DNA of 64,000 bases from the NCBI GenBank assembly GCA_016935315.1, contig JAFGRD010000028.1, forward strand, positions 1-64,000, given 5' to 3'. Origin of the DNA: Pirellulales bacterium. Its GTDB lineage: Bacteria > Planctomycetota > Planctomycetia > Pirellulales > Thermoguttaceae. Under the pieces are notes generated by a model. It did no database searches, was not told the DNA's origin, and worked only from the letters and a program-made list of their open reading frames with translations. How positions within the stretch are numbered: position 1 is the stretch's first letter; every line of letters starts with the position of its first letter. Below are positions 88 through 23,295 of the stretch, in pieces. A program made the translations under genes and the position numbers.

Positions 88-1377
88 CTATCGCAGCGAC
101 CAGCCGTCGGGCAGCGTGGCCCCTTTGGGCACCACCACGATGCCGTCGCGAATCATACCCTGCTCCGTTTCCACGGTCGACTCAACGTCGCGGTCGTTGA
201 CGATGCGGACGTTGTGGCCGATCCGGCAGTTTTTGTCGATGATGGCACGCTCGATGTGCGCCCCGGGCCCCACCCCCAGCGGCGGAAAGCCGCAGGACTT
301 GTCGGCGGCGATGTCCTCGGGCGCTTCGTAGAAGTCGTTGCCCATCAACACCGAGTTGCGAACGTGGACGTCGCGCCCGATCAGACATCGCAGCCCGATC
401 ACGCTGTTCTCGATCACGGCGCCTTCTTCAATCGTGCAGCCGTCGGCGATCAGGCTGTCGCGGATGGTGGCGCCCTCGATGCGGGAAGGCGGCAGGAACC
501 GGGCGCGTGAGTAGATCGGAGCGTCGACCGACGAGAGCTCAAACGGGGGATCGGCCGTCGTGAGTTGCAGATTGGCCTCGAAAAACGACTTGATCGTTCC
601 AATGTCCTCCCAGTAGCCGTCGAACAAGTGGACCTGAACGTGGCGCGAGCGGATCGAGGCGGGAAACACCTCCTTGCCGAAGTCCTGATAGTCGGTCTTC
701 ACCAACACGTCCAGCAAGGTGTCGCGGTTGAACAGGTAGATCCCCATGCTGGCCAGGCAGTCGCGGCCGGCGGCGGCGACGCCTTGCGCCTCGATCCAGC
801 CGGGATCGGTGCGCACGTGGTCGAGCTCCCGTTCGGTCTGCGGCTTCTCGAGGAAACCCACCACGCGCCCGGATTCGTCCAGCCGCATGATCCCCAGTTC
901 CGAGGCCTCCTGGCTGAAGACCGGCACGGCCGCGATCGTCACGTCGGCCCCGGCGCTCTCGTGCGAGGCGATCATGTCGCGATAGTCCATCCGATAGAGC
1001 TGATCGCCGGAGAGGATCAGCACGTAGTCGATGCCCGGCTGCTGCAAGTAGCGGAGGTTCTGCCGGACGGCGTCGGCGGTACCCTGATACCAGTCGGTGC
1101 TGGCAATCGTCTGCTCAGCCGCCAGGATCTCCACGAACCCGTCGCCGAACCCGTCGAAAATGTAGGTACGGCGGATGTGGCGGTGCAGGCTGACCGAGTT
1201 GAATTGCGTCAAGACGTAGATGCGGTTCAACCCGCTGTTGAGGCAGTTGGACAGCGGGATATCGATCAATCGGTATTTGCCCGCCACCGGCACCGCCGGC
1301 TTGGAACGGAACTTGGTCAGTGGAAAGAGACGAGTTCCTCGTCCCCCACCGAGCACGAACGTGGCCACGCGTTTCAT
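88..1377 (-). CDS. glgC: Glucose-1-phosphate adenylyltransferase
   Basis: This 429-residue protein makes ADP-glucose from ATP and glucose-1-phosphate, the committed step of bacterial glycogen synthesis in the cytoplasm. The N-terminal nucleotidyltransferase signature GGGRGTRLFPLT lies near residue 10, followed by the sugar-phosphate binding stretch KPAVPVAGKYRLIDIPLSN. The last third shows the hexapeptide rhythm of a left-handed beta-helix (for example IEEGAVIENSVIG), as in GlgC trimers and tetramers. Length matches the family. The ATG at 1377 puts the catalytic motif at the normal distance from the N-terminus, and GAGGG lies upstream. It is transcribed away from the porin gene, with no other glycogen gene in view. 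Assignment is by motif and length. Confidence 0.95.
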   Translation of the reverse strand: MKRVATFVLGGGRGTRLFPLTKFRSKPAVPVAGKYRLIDIPLSNCLNSGLNRIYVLTQFNSVSLHRHIRRTYIFDGFGDGFVEILAAEQTIASTDWYQGTADAVRQNLRYLQQPGIDYVLILSGDQLYRMDYRDMIASHESAGADVTIAAVPVFSQEASELGIMRLDESGRVVGFLEKPQTERELDHVRTDPGWIEAQGVAAAGRDCLASMGIYLFNRDTLLDVLVKTDYQDFGKEVFPASIRSRHVQVHLFDGYWEDIGTIKSFFEANLQLTTADPPFELSSVDAPIYSRARFLPPSRIEGATIRDSLIADGCTIEEGAVIENSVIGLRCLIGRDVHVRNSVLMGNDFYEAPEDIAADKSCGFPPLGVGPGAHIERAIIDKNCRIGHNVRIVNDRDVESTVETEQGMIRDGIVVVPKGATLPDGWSLR

Positions 1378-19862: not shown

Positions 19863-21020
19863 TCAAGAAGACTCAGTGGCCTTAGCCAACGCCTGCCCAA
19901 GATCGTCCCGCAGGTCTTCGAAGGCCTCCAGCCCCACGGACAGACGAATCAGACCGTCGCTGATCCCGTGGGCCGCCCGATCGGCCGGGGCGTAGCTGGC
20001 GTGAGACATGGCCGCCGGCTGTTCGATCAACGATTCGACGGCGCCAAGGCTGACGGCCAGTTGAAACAGCCGTGTGCTCTCCACCACGGTCTTGGCGGCC
20101 AGAAAATCGCCCGCCACCTCGAAGCTGAGCATGGCCCCGAACGCTCCGTCCATTTGCCGGGTGGCGATCTCATGGCCCGGATGGCCCGGCAGCCCCGGAT
20201 ACAGCACCCGAGCGACCCGCGGATCGGCGGCCAGCAGTTCCGCCAGCCGGGCGGCCGTGCGACACTGCTCCCGGACCCGCAGCTCGAGTGTCTTGATACC
20301 GCGGCTGCACAGGAATGCCTCGAGCGGCCCCATCACGGCACCCGTCGCGTTTTGGATGAAGTACAGCCGATCGTACAGCTCGCGGTCGTTGACCACCAGC
20401 GCTCCTCCGAGCACGTCGCTGTGGCCGCCCAGGTACTTGGTTGCCGAGTGCATCACGATGTCGGCCCCCAGTTCCAGCGGCCGCGTGAGCACCGGCGTGG
20501 CAAATGTGCTGTCCACGCCCAGCATCGCACCACGGCGATGGGCCAATTCGGCACAGGCGGCCAGGTCGGTAATCGACATCAACGGATTGCCCGGGCTCTC
20601 GACCCAAATCAGCTTCGTCTCGGGCCGCGCGGCCGCCTCGAAGGCCTCCAGGTCGGTCGAGGGCGCCAGCGTGACTCCGATGCCCGCCGAATCGAGGATC
20701 CGGTGCAGCAGCCGATAGGTCCCGCCGTAGATATCCGTGCCGGCCAGAACGTGGTCGCCCGGCTCCAGCAGCATGGTGGCACAGTGGATGGCCGCCATGC
20801 CGGACGAGAAGGCCAGCGCGCCCGCCCCCGATTCGAGCGAAGCGAGCGTGGCCTCCACGGCGGCCCGGGTGGGGTTTCCACTTCGCGCGTAATCGAACTC
20901 GCCCCACTCGCCGGCGCCCGGCTGGATGTAGGTGGCGGCCAGGTGGATCGGCCGCACGACGGCGCCCGTTTGCGGGTCCCGCTCGTTTCCGACGTGAATG
21001 GCGCGAGTGCGAAAACGCAT
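19863..21020 (-). CDS. PLP-dependent trans-sulfuration enzyme (cystathionine gamma-synthase/lyase family), second gene
   Basis: The 385-residue enzyme belongs to the Cys/Met metabolism PLP family. It shows the N-terminal pattern RAIHVGNERDPQTGAVVRPI, the substrate region YARSGNPTRAAVE and the PLP lysine in HSATKYLGGHSD. Family members make or cleave cystathionine or sulfhydrylate O-acyl-homoserine; the sequence alone does not decide which. It lies 28 bases after the related gene at 21049-22272 on the same strand, so the two form an operon controlled by the leader upstream of the first gene. Together they could make and break cystathionine, which is inference. Confidence 0.85.
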   Translation of the reverse strand: MRFRTRAIHVGNERDPQTGAVVRPIHLAATYIQPGAGEWGEFDYARSGNPTRAAVEATLASLESGAGALAFSSGMAAIHCATMLLEPGDHVLAGTDIYGGTYRLLHRILDSAGIGVTLAPSTDLEAFEAAARPETKLIWVESPGNPLMSITDLAACAELAHRRGAMLGVDSTFATPVLTRPLELGADIVMHSATKYLGGHSDVLGGALVVNDRELYDRLYFIQNATGAVMGPLEAFLCSRGIKTLELRVREQCRTAARLAELLAADPRVARVLYPGLPGHPGHEIATRQMDGAFGAMLSFEVAGDFLAAKTVVESTRLFQLAVSLGAVESLIEQPAAMSHASYAPADRAAHGISDGLIRLSVGLEAFEDLRDDLGQALAKATESS

Positions 21021-21048: not shown

Positions 21049-22272
21049 CTATCGCTCCAGCGCTTGTTTCAGGTCCTCGATCAGATCCTCCGTGTTCTCG
21101 ATCCCACACGAGATGCGGATCATGTTGTCGGCTATGCCGATGGCCCGCCGCTGCTCCATGGTGAAATCGTGATAGCTCATCACGATCGGCTGCTCGATAA
21201 TCGACTCGACGCCCCCCAGGCTCGGCCCGATCCGCGGAATGCGGACCGCGTCGACCACGGCGGCCGTCCGGTCCTGGTCGGCGTCCTTGACAAGAAACGT
21301 CACCAGCCCGCCGTAGCCGTTCATGGTTCGCTCGGCCACGTCGTGGTACTTGTGGCTCGGCAGCCCCGGGTAATAGACCTTCTCCACGCGCGGATGCCCT
21401 TCGAGGAAACGGGCCACGGCCAGCCCGTTCTCGTTGTGGCGCTGCATCCGCAGCTCGAACGTCTTCAGCCCTCGCAGCAGCAGGTAGATGTTGTGCGGTC
21501 CGTTGACCATGCCGATCACGCCGCGGAGCTTGCGCAGCGGCTCGATCTTCTCTTGCGAGCCGATCACCACGCCGCCAAGCATGTCGTTGTGACCCGACAG
21601 GTACTTGGTCAGCGAATGGATCACGTAGTCGACCCCGTAGTCGAACGGCCGCAGGTTGTAGGGCGTGGCCAGCGTCGAGTCGATCACCGTCTCCACACCG
21701 TATTTCTTGCCCAGGCCGACGAAGCGCTGCAGATCCACCACGCTGAGGTGCGGATTGGTGGGCGATTCGCTGACCAGCAAGGCCGTGCGGGAATTGATCG
21801 CCGCCTCCATCTTCTCGTAGTCGCAGGCGGGGATCTGATGCGTCACCACGCCGAACTTGCCGAGGTGCTTCGTGCACAGTTCGCGGGTGCGATGATAGCA
21901 CTCGTCGAACAGCACGACCTCGTCGCCTGCCTTCAGCTTCGCCAGCAGCAGTCCGGTCACGGCCGACATGCCGGAGGAATAGATGGCGGCTGCCTCCGCT
22001 CCCTCCAAGGCCGCCAGCTTCCGCTCGGCCACCTTCTCGCTGGGATTGCCGTAGCGGGCGTACTCCTCGCGGGGCAGCTTCCGGGCGACGAAATCGATCG
22101 CCGACTGCGTATCGGGGAACGTGTAAGTAGCCGTGCAGAAGATGGGGTCGGTGATCGCGTTGCCTAATTTCTGGCGGTCTTCCCCGGCGTGAACCGCCCG
22201 GGTCGACACGCCTTGTCCGGCCCACTGATGGTCGCCCGACGGCCGGGGCTTTTCAGTCGAAACGTCGCTCAT
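21049..22272 (-). CDS. PLP-dependent trans-sulfuration enzyme (cystathionine gamma-synthase/lyase family), first gene
   Basis: This 407-residue paralogue of the next gene has STRAVHAGEDRQKLG at the N-terminus, EEYARYGNPSEKVAERKL in the substrate region and the PLP lysine in HSLTKYLSGHND. Likely reactions are cystathionine synthesis or cleavage, or O-acyl-homoserine sulfhydrylation. ATG 22272 is chosen because family homology begins about 20 residues in; the open frame continues upstream, but only through the leader and its terminator. The leader at 22273-22475 suggests control by premature termination. The two paralogues differ clearly, so this is an old duplication or a pair of distinct enzymes. 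Confidence 0.85.
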   Translation of the reverse strand: MSDVSTEKPRPSGDHQWAGQGVSTRAVHAGEDRQKLGNAITDPIFCTATYTFPDTQSAIDFVARKLPREEYARYGNPSEKVAERKLAALEGAEAAAIYSSGMSAVTGLLLAKLKAGDEVVLFDECYHRTRELCTKHLGKFGVVTHQIPACDYEKMEAAINSRTALLVSESPTNPHLSVVDLQRFVGLGKKYGVETVIDSTLATPYNLRPFDYGVDYVIHSLTKYLSGHNDMLGGVVIGSQEKIEPLRKLRGVIGMVNGPHNIYLLLRGLKTFELRMQRHNENGLAVARFLEGHPRVEKVYYPGLPSHKYHDVAERTMNGYGGLVTFLVKDADQDRTAAVVDAVRIPRIGPSLGGVESIIEQPIVMSYHDFTMEQRRAIGIADNMIRISCGIENTEDLIEDLKQALER

Positions 22273-22336
22273 GGCAGGGGGTCTTCCAGGTCCGAGGGGT
22301 ACGTTATACTTCCAAGGGATGTTTGAGGCCGGACAC

Positions 22337-22374
22337 AAAAAAACCGCGACGGGCGCCTCGTTCGGCGGTCGCGG
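22337..22374 (-). terminator. Intrinsic terminator inside the leader of the trans-sulfuration operon
   Basis: On the minus strand CCGCGAC (22374-22368) pairs with GTCGCGG (22350-22344), extended by GCC/GGC inside, and is followed by seven T. No minus-strand gene lies upstream for it to terminate, so it probably acts within the leader of the gene starting at 22272. Confidence 0.75.
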
Positions 22375-22475
22375 CTTGGCTCGGTTCAAGTTGGTCGCCA
22401 AAAAGATCAACAGATTGCGATTTGGCGATGGCTCTTTAGCAGAGAGTGGCTGCAAGCGGCCGCAAATCCCATATC
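22375..22475 (-). ncRNA. Candidate regulatory leader (riboswitch or attenuator)
   Basis: About 100 bases lie between the predicted transcription start and the terminator hairpin, the size of an aptamer. On the minus strand GCAG-CCA-CTCT-CTGC-TAA-AGAG (22453-22432) could form an H-type pseudoknot, with GCAG/CTGC as the first stem and CTCT/AGAG as the second. GATTTG and CAAATC could close an outer stem. I cannot match it to SAM-I or T-box consensus elements. The class is open. Confidence 0.45.
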
Positions 22476-22481
22476 AGTGTG

Positions 22482-22510
22482 ATTCTACTCAGGCCGGCAT
22501 CTCAAAGCAA
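22482..22510 (-). promoter_or_regulatory. Promoter of the trans-sulfuration operon
   Basis: On the minus strand TTGCTT and TAGAAT are separated by 17 bases. The predicted start near 22475 leaves a leader of about 200 bases before the first gene, with the terminator in its middle. Confidence 0.5.
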
Positions 22511-22653
22511 GTCTCCGGTTGTCCCCGATCCGCGTCGCCGGGTTTTGCTATCTCTTCTTGACTGCGGCAGCCGATATCCCAATAATCCCGCGATCCGCTG
22601 CGACCCGCCACGTTGGCGACTATTCAGAGGTCTACCCCGCGAGGAGTTCGATC

Positions 22654-23295
22654 ATGGACCGCAAAGCATTGACCTGTCTGACTTTAGGGATTCTGGTGAT
22701 ATCGGCGGCGGGCGGATGCCAATCGCCTTATCGGGCGGATCAGGGTGCACTGTTCGGGGGGCTTCTGGGCGCCGGAACCGGCGCGATCATCGGCGACGCC
22801 GTGGGAAACGCCGGCGCCGGTACTGCGATTGGGGCGGGTGTGGGTGCCTTGACCGGGGCAGCCATCGGCAGCGAACTCGACCAGATCGAGGCCCAGAACC
22901 GGGCCGCCATCGCCCAGCAACTCGGGCGCGAGGTGCCGGCCGGCGCCGTAACGCCCCAAGACGTGGTGTACATGACCCAAGCTGGGGTCGACGACGAGCT
23001 GATCGTCAACCACGTCCGCATCCACGGCGCGGCCTCGCCGCTGCAGCCCAGCGACCTGATCTACCTGCAGCAACAGAACGTCAGCACCAGTGTGATCAAG
23101 GCGATGCAGACGCCGCCCACCCGGCAGACCCAGACGACGGTCGTCCGGGAAGCGGCCCCGCCGCCGGTCGTGGTCCAAGAGTATCACTACGCGCCGGCGC
23201 CCTACTGGTGGGGACCGCCACGGTATCGCCGCCCCGTCCCCATGCATCCGCGGCACCGCCCCGGCGTCAGTTGGGGACTTTCGTTCCACAACTGA
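22654..23295 (+). CDS. Lipoprotein with glycine-zipper domain
   Basis: The product is about 213 residues. A lipoprotein signal ends in ISAAGGC near residue 22. A glycine-zipper segment follows (GLLGAGTGAIIGDAVGNAG, AIGAGVGALTGAAIGSELD), as found in membrane-embedded or membrane-associated outer-membrane lipoproteins. The middle has two short repeats (TPQDVVYMTQAGVDDELI and PSDLIYLQQQNVSTSVIK) and the C-terminus is rich in Tyr, Pro and Arg. ATG 22654 is preceded by GAGGAG. It diverges from the trans-sulfuration operon. A role in envelope integrity is likely but not shown. Confidence 0.75.
   Translation: MDRKALTCLTLGILVISAAGGCQSPYRADQGALFGGLLGAGTGAIIGDAVGNAGAGTAIGAGVGALTGAAIGSELDQIEAQNRAAIAQQLGREVPAGAVTPQDVVYMTQAGVDDELIVNHVRIHGAASPLQPSDLIYLQQQNVSTSVIKAMQTPPTRQTQTTVVREAAPPPVVVQEYHYAPAPYWWGPPRYRRPVPMHPRHRPGVSWGLSFHN

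Follow-up and report, generated by a model that had tools for sequence, protein, structure and literature searches.

A probable compact SAM-II-type riboswitch ahead of sulfur amino acid genes in the Pirellulales

What is an intrinsic terminator doing between a promoter and the two sulfur amino acid genes that the promoter appears to serve? This arrangement is found on the minus strand of a 64,000-nucleotide stretch of contig JAFGRD010000028.1 from a Pirellulales bacterium, which we refer to in its entirety as the window. The first-pass annotation had proposed a new riboswitch or attenuator here and suggested, among other checks, an Infernal/Rfam search of the leader and a look for its conservation in relatives, for covarying base pairs and for an alternative antiterminator. 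Our analysis points with high confidence to a compact SAM-II-type riboswitch that acts as a transcription-attenuating OFF switch. The proposal holds in that the leader is conserved, SAM-II-like, probably pseudoknotted and equipped with a predicted antiterminator, but not as a new class with an open ligand, given that 13 pocket nucleotides are kept and that a related set of elements, group B, scores up to 36.3 bits against the SAM-II model.

Layout and conservation of the leader

The promoter TTGCTT-17-TAGAAT (22482..22510, minus strand, as are all features of the leader and both genes) lies where it had been placed, with TTGCTT at 22510-22505 and TAGAAT at 22487-22482, and it recurs in relatives. 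The pattern TANNNT ends 6-14 nt ahead of the conserved motif in 120 of 145 leaders, compared with 9 of 145 in a control window 65 nt further upstream, and TTG stands 15-19 nt ahead of TANNNT in 112 of those 120. The promoter predicts a transcript start near 22475, a few bases ahead of the aptamer (22430..22470), which in the window begins 11 bases past the TAGAAT box. A spacer hairpin, UCGCCAAA/UUUGGCGA (22395..22428), occupies the gap between aptamer and terminator. The strong terminator that had been called ahead of the first gene is present (22337..22377), with a hairpin from about 22377 followed by seven T at 22343-22337 and a folding energy of -23.0 kcal/mol when hairpin and T run are folded alone. 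The first gene (21049..22272, ATG at 22272) encodes a Cys/Met metabolism PLP enzyme resembling cystathionine gamma-synthase or methionine gamma-lyase, and the second (19863..21020) starts 28 bp past its end. Both match PF01053; for the second, the nearest NCBIfam model is cystathionine gamma-synthase, below its cut-off. A mechanical list of open reading frames includes minus-strand frames upstream, as predictions only. The divergent neighbor on the plus strand is a glycine-zipper/OmpA-like lipoprotein reading frame (22519-23295; NF053611, below its cut-off) that abuts the promoter region of the riboswitch or extends into it.

The leader of the first PLP gene contains GGGATTTGCGGCCGCTTGCAGCC-N5-CTGCTAAAGAGCC (22470-22430), the whole aptamer reading GGGATTTGCGGCCGCTTGCAGCCACTCTCTGCTAAAGAGCC. 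A search of 60 relatives with the first enzyme retrieved 30 gene loci by protein alone, the window's own included. The motif precedes the orthologous gene in 27 of the 30, with zero substitutions in GGGATTTG[C/T]GGCCGCTTGC, so that the leader is indeed conserved in relatives; it is absent from the retrieved stretch at L013, L019 and L029. A covariance model, R1, built from 26 of these 27 loci (L007, with a long insert, was omitted) matches 137 of 246 genomes of the window's order, one match apiece, at E up to 0.01. Across 392 genomes of the phylum, R1 matches 68 at a loose E of 1; all matches at E 4.1e-8 or better fall within the order, and group B is among the next. A pattern scan of named genomes returned at least 80 records, all of those listed being planctomycetes by title or genus, and the genera among the matches listed are Rhodopirellula, Rubripirellula, Neorhodopirellula, Bythopirellula, Lacipirellula and Blastopirellula.

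For statistics on the leaders, we reduced 197 loci to 146 distinct aptamers: the pattern (2 substitutions allowed, plus GC[TC]AAA) was fitted by 166 loci and missed by 31, and 20 duplicates were then removed. Because these leaders were chosen by pattern and model, conservation of letters among them is partly by construction, and the 30 ortholog loci form the less biased set; the named-locus set (80 among the matches listed) shares species with the 146 leaders. The downstream gene is identical in kind for 141 of the 146. In one genome, G055, the full aptamer and spacer hairpin lie at the end of contig 12 (L098), and the PLP gene ortholog sits on a different contig, C31.

SAM-II pocket nucleotides in a probable reduced pseudoknot

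Thirteen nucleotides of SAM-II (U10-U12, U20, U21, G22, C23, G42, C43, U44 and A45-A47) are described as fully conserved because they form the SAM pocket (PMC3764141). All 13 occur in the window, as GATTT, TTGC and GCTAAA in the SAM-II order, so the resemblance of GATTT, TTGCA and GCTAAA to SAM-II that had been remarked on is a resemblance to the pocket itself. They are kept in all 27 motif-bearing ortholog loci and in 146 of 146 selected leaders, the latter partly by construction of the pattern. The shared order of elements with SAM-II (SAM_alpha, RF00521) is P1, GAUUU, P2a, UUGCA, P1, L3, GCUAAA, P2a. In the window, P1 begins with GG/CC (22470-22469 with 22449-22448) and is followed by L1 GAUUU (22468-22464), P2a GGC/GCC (22461-22459 with 22432-22430), UU (22455-22454), P2b GCAG/CUGC (22453-22450 with 22442-22439), a 5-nt L3 (22447-22443) and UAAA (22438-22435). 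The pairs of an H-type pseudoknot formed by P1 and P2 are thus present, its third P1 pair covarying and P2 being near-invariant. The pseudoknot previously sketched at 22432-22453 was right in outline, but its predicted extent is 22470-22430. The proposed outer stem GATTTG/CAAATC, on the other hand, exists in the window but finds no backing elsewhere, CAAATC occurring in one of the 146 distinct leaders, the window's own.

In group A, to which the window belongs, P1 has 2-3 pairs and L3 is mostly 3-5 nt, whereas the Rfam consensus of SAM-II has a 6-bp P1 and an A-rich L3; P2a, GGC/GCC only, is also shorter than in the RF00521 consensus, and the host here is a member of the Planctomycetota. It is because P1, L3 and P2a are shortened that the leader misfits the SAM-II consensus, a misfit already pointed out. 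At E up to 10, the proposed Infernal/Rfam check turned up nothing related to SAM, either for the window or for nine relatives' loci, probably owing to a P1 of just 2-3 pairs and an L3 of 5 nt. None of 60 relatives exceeds the RF00521 cut-off of 36 bits, and among the matches listed the 15.3 bits at two relatives' leaders are at noise level. The SAM-V model (RF01826) finds nothing above its cut-off of 41 bits in 30 genomes and nothing in the window's own genome, where SAM-I (RF00162) is also without a match at E up to 1.

Within group A, L3 measures either 2-7 nt or 31-62 nt. The long form replaces the short loop in six distinct leaders (L007, L050, L107, L116, L183 and L187), where the inserts fold as hairpins of -11.2 to -26.0 kcal/mol and recall P3 of SAM-V. 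The pseudoknot core and ligand site of SAM-V are reported to superimpose on those of SAM-II (PMC6061858), and a stem inserted in L3 is a feature that some leaders here share with SAM-V. The family SAM-II long loops (RF01726), which differs from SAM-II in its loops, is recorded from Bacteroidetes and marine sequences (PMC2864571); the loops here are mostly shorter.

Covariation was the next of the proposed checks, and its result is divided between the two stems. The third P1 pair, just outside GG/CC, is standard in 97 of the 146 distinct leaders, where 61.1 are expected and 0 of 5000 shuffles reach as high; it is AT in 35, TA in 28 and CG in 24, and unpaired in 49. Sliding the partner by +1, +2 or +3 leaves 59, 50 and 39 paired against 52.3, 45.9 and 38.0 expected, and sliding it by -1 leaves 10 against 6.8 (14 of 5000 shuffles as high). 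In a 138-tip tree built from the downstream enzyme, the pair undergoes 8 compensatory double changes, compared with 2, 0, 0 and 4 in four misaligned controls, and 25 changes break it. The third pair thus helps without being essential. Some excess of pairing is also seen at the fifth pair (52 of 146, 37.9 expected, 4 of 5000 shuffles as high) and no clear excess at the fourth (63 of 146, 56.3 expected, 633 of 5000). P2a and P2b, which scarcely vary, yield no covariation.

A bridge to canonical SAM-II comes from group B, represented by four genomes that share a genus and belong to a different class of the phylum (example, GTGGGATTTGCGGCGTATTGCAGCCACGTTAAAAACTGCTAAAAAGCC); here P1 has 5-6 bp and L3 is A-rich. 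These elements align end to end with RF00521 at 36.3, 34.6, 30.1 and 28.9 bits, one of the four above the cut-off of 36, and they score 25.7-27.3 bits with RF01726 against a cut-off of 44. Judged by sequence, group B links the window's form to SAM-II; measured against the RF00521 consensus, this compact form is without most of P1 and L3. Across the 392 phylum genomes, RF00521 at E up to 0.001 picks up six loci, namely the four of group B and two others (L319 and L322) that we took as chance because part of the pocket words is missing. Downstream of the group B aptamer stands a gene encoding a protein of ~170 aa rather than a recognized methionine gene, which counts against a simple story for this group. 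The gene lies at 562-1083 (+) in L191, with matching places in L051, L053 and L055; its conserved product matches nothing in Pfam or PDB, gives a single weak NCBIfam match well under that model's cut-off, and is a candidate for a role in SAM or methionine metabolism.

G268 (L189), which belongs to group B's genus and matches R1 weakly, was rejected for want of TTGC and GCTAAA. Outside group B and the order, ten of the 12 weak matches inspected proved at first to lack the motif's second half or to lie inside long open frames. On closer inspection, two genomes of one other genus among these give a good fit to SAM-II. They carry AGTCGCCGATTTACGACCACTTGCAGGGCGACCCACAAAT[C/G]CTGCTAAAGCGTCGG (L061, about 1496-1546, and L062, reverse strand), with all SAM-II pocket words, a possible 6-bp P1 (GTCGCC/GGCGAC), GCAG/CTGC and a P2a of CGAC/GTCG. 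R1 matches it at E about 0.2, Rfam returns no SAM match at E up to 5, and a MoxR-like ATPase reading frame lies downstream. This is probably a further SAM-II-like group.

Terminator and apparent start-codon platforms

An alternative antiterminator, also among those checks, is predicted in the relatives as well as in the window. A strict terminator was recognized in 91 of the 146 leaders, and in 78 of these 91 the first 12 bases of its 5' arm contain GCCGC, the complement of GCGGC in the aptamer, while the stems otherwise differ. Four of the 13 exceptions are those of group B, in which CGCCGC lies slightly deeper in the arm and the aptamer reads GCGGCG. In the named-locus set, among the matches listed, GCCGC occurs in 31 of 40 leader terminators versus 4 of 133 other terminator-like hairpins. 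Part of the GCCGC count is owed to shared descent.

In the window, the two sides of this pairing are UUGCGGC in the aptamer (22459..22465) and GCCGCGA in the terminator 5' arm (22369..22375). When the window leader is cut at the terminator loop, TTGCGGC and GCCGCGA are paired in its minimum-energy fold, whereas the uncut leader forms P2 and the terminator. Among the 78 leaders folded only up to the 5' arm, the antiterminator has a pairing probability above 0.5 in 61 and is unfavored in the computed fold of the other 17. A terminator together with a mutually exclusive pairing in the aptamer supports, at the level of modeled folds, a transcription attenuator with an antiterminator. A second antiterminator segment, suggested by the window fold, is weakly supported elsewhere, AAGC preceding GCCGC in 19 of 78 leaders versus 6 of 78 for a control stretch. 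Hairpins of at least 4 bp starting within 3 nt of the aptamer occur in 70 of 87 terminator-bearing leaders tested, and their sequences differ.

A different platform appears in nine loci from three genera, where an ATG follows directly on the P2a strand. A strict terminator is missing from all nine, and in six of them G13, which would pair in the antiterminator, is changed to A, as against 0 of the 137 other leaders; these six cases represent few events, since five belong to one genus. By analogy, the nine loci suggest translational control, which has been proposed for SAM-V and described for the metX SAM-II (PMC6061858). The start codon adjoining P2a is thus another feature shared with SAM-V in nine leaders; by contrast with SAM-V, most leaders here with a recognized platform have a terminator. 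Of the 146 leaders, 46 lack a recognized platform of either kind, strict terminator or adjoining ATG.

Proposed mechanism and alternatives

Conservation, complementarity, P1 covariation and the exclusive folds are results of computation, and on them we place a ligand, SAM, and a sense of response, binding as OFF, that are taken over from SAM-II and SAM-V. Transcription would begin a few bases ahead of the aptamer. At low SAM, UUGCGGC of the aptamer would pair with GCCGCGA of the terminator 5' arm, and this antiterminator would allow read-through into both sulfur amino acid genes. When SAM is present, the pseudoknot would close through P1, P2a GGC/GCC and P2b GCAG/CUGC, with GAUUU in the P2 groove, and would hold the bases of the antiterminator, so that the terminator folds and transcription ends. 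Because the antiterminator and the P2/terminator folds are mutually exclusive, SAM binding should favor termination. By analogy, then, the RNA very probably senses SAM and turns the genes off when SAM is plentiful. SAM-II is often coupled to terminators (PMC2258182) and stands upstream of methionine genes, metY among them (PMC4239095); the gene under this leader likewise encodes an enzyme of sulfur amino acids.

The same fold could instead bind SAH, decarboxylated SAM or another relative of SAM, making this a SAM-II-derived class of altered specificity. P1, L3 and P2a do deviate from SAM-II, and SAM aptamers are known to have variants that bind something else, spermidine in one case (PMC10853860). 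We nevertheless consider a different ligand unlikely, as the 13 pocket nucleotides, including the equivalents of the U residues facing the sulfonium, are unaltered in 146 of 146 selected leaders and the enzyme controlled is one of sulfur amino acids, as in SAM-II (PMC4239095). If a DNA- or RNA-binding regulator bound the motif next to the promoter, and the terminator further on were an ordinary one, the near-constant short distance from the -10 box and the palindrome GCGGCCGC would be accounted for; the way the SAM-II words are ordered and spaced, the covariation in P1, the match of group B to RF00521 and a terminator arm complementary to the motif would all be unexpected, and we regard such a site as very improbable.

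Leader-peptide attenuation draws on an open frame with a TTG start (21049-22455, minus strand) that crosses the leader in frame with the first gene. A shared frame would break, however, because L3 in group A varies between 2-7 and 31-62 nt, and the conserved letters match the SAM-II pocket, leaving this explanation with hardly any probability. From its sequence, a divergent SAM-II riboswitch is a better description of the element than a new class. A bolder version, which we put forward tentatively and hold to be doubtful, is a third branch of the SAM-II/SAM-V superfamily, with an aptamer of ~41 nt, a P1 of 2-3 pairs at the first bases of the transcript, movement between terminator control and start-codon occlusion within one order and possibly a shifted ligand preference.

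Among the papers listed by searches of open-access main text, none describes a planctomycete SAM-II-type riboswitch in its title or abstract opening. The divergent SAM-II riboswitch proposed here would give the window's planctomycete order a predicted SAM riboswitch that current Rfam models do not report. Apparent gaps in riboswitch distribution, it has been suggested, may hide extreme structural variants (PMC2258182), and the compact planctomycete aptamer would be one of these. It shows how far P1 and L3 may be reduced with a SAM-II pocket still in place, and how one aptamer family may serve, in related genera, a terminator platform as well as what appears to be a start-codon platform.
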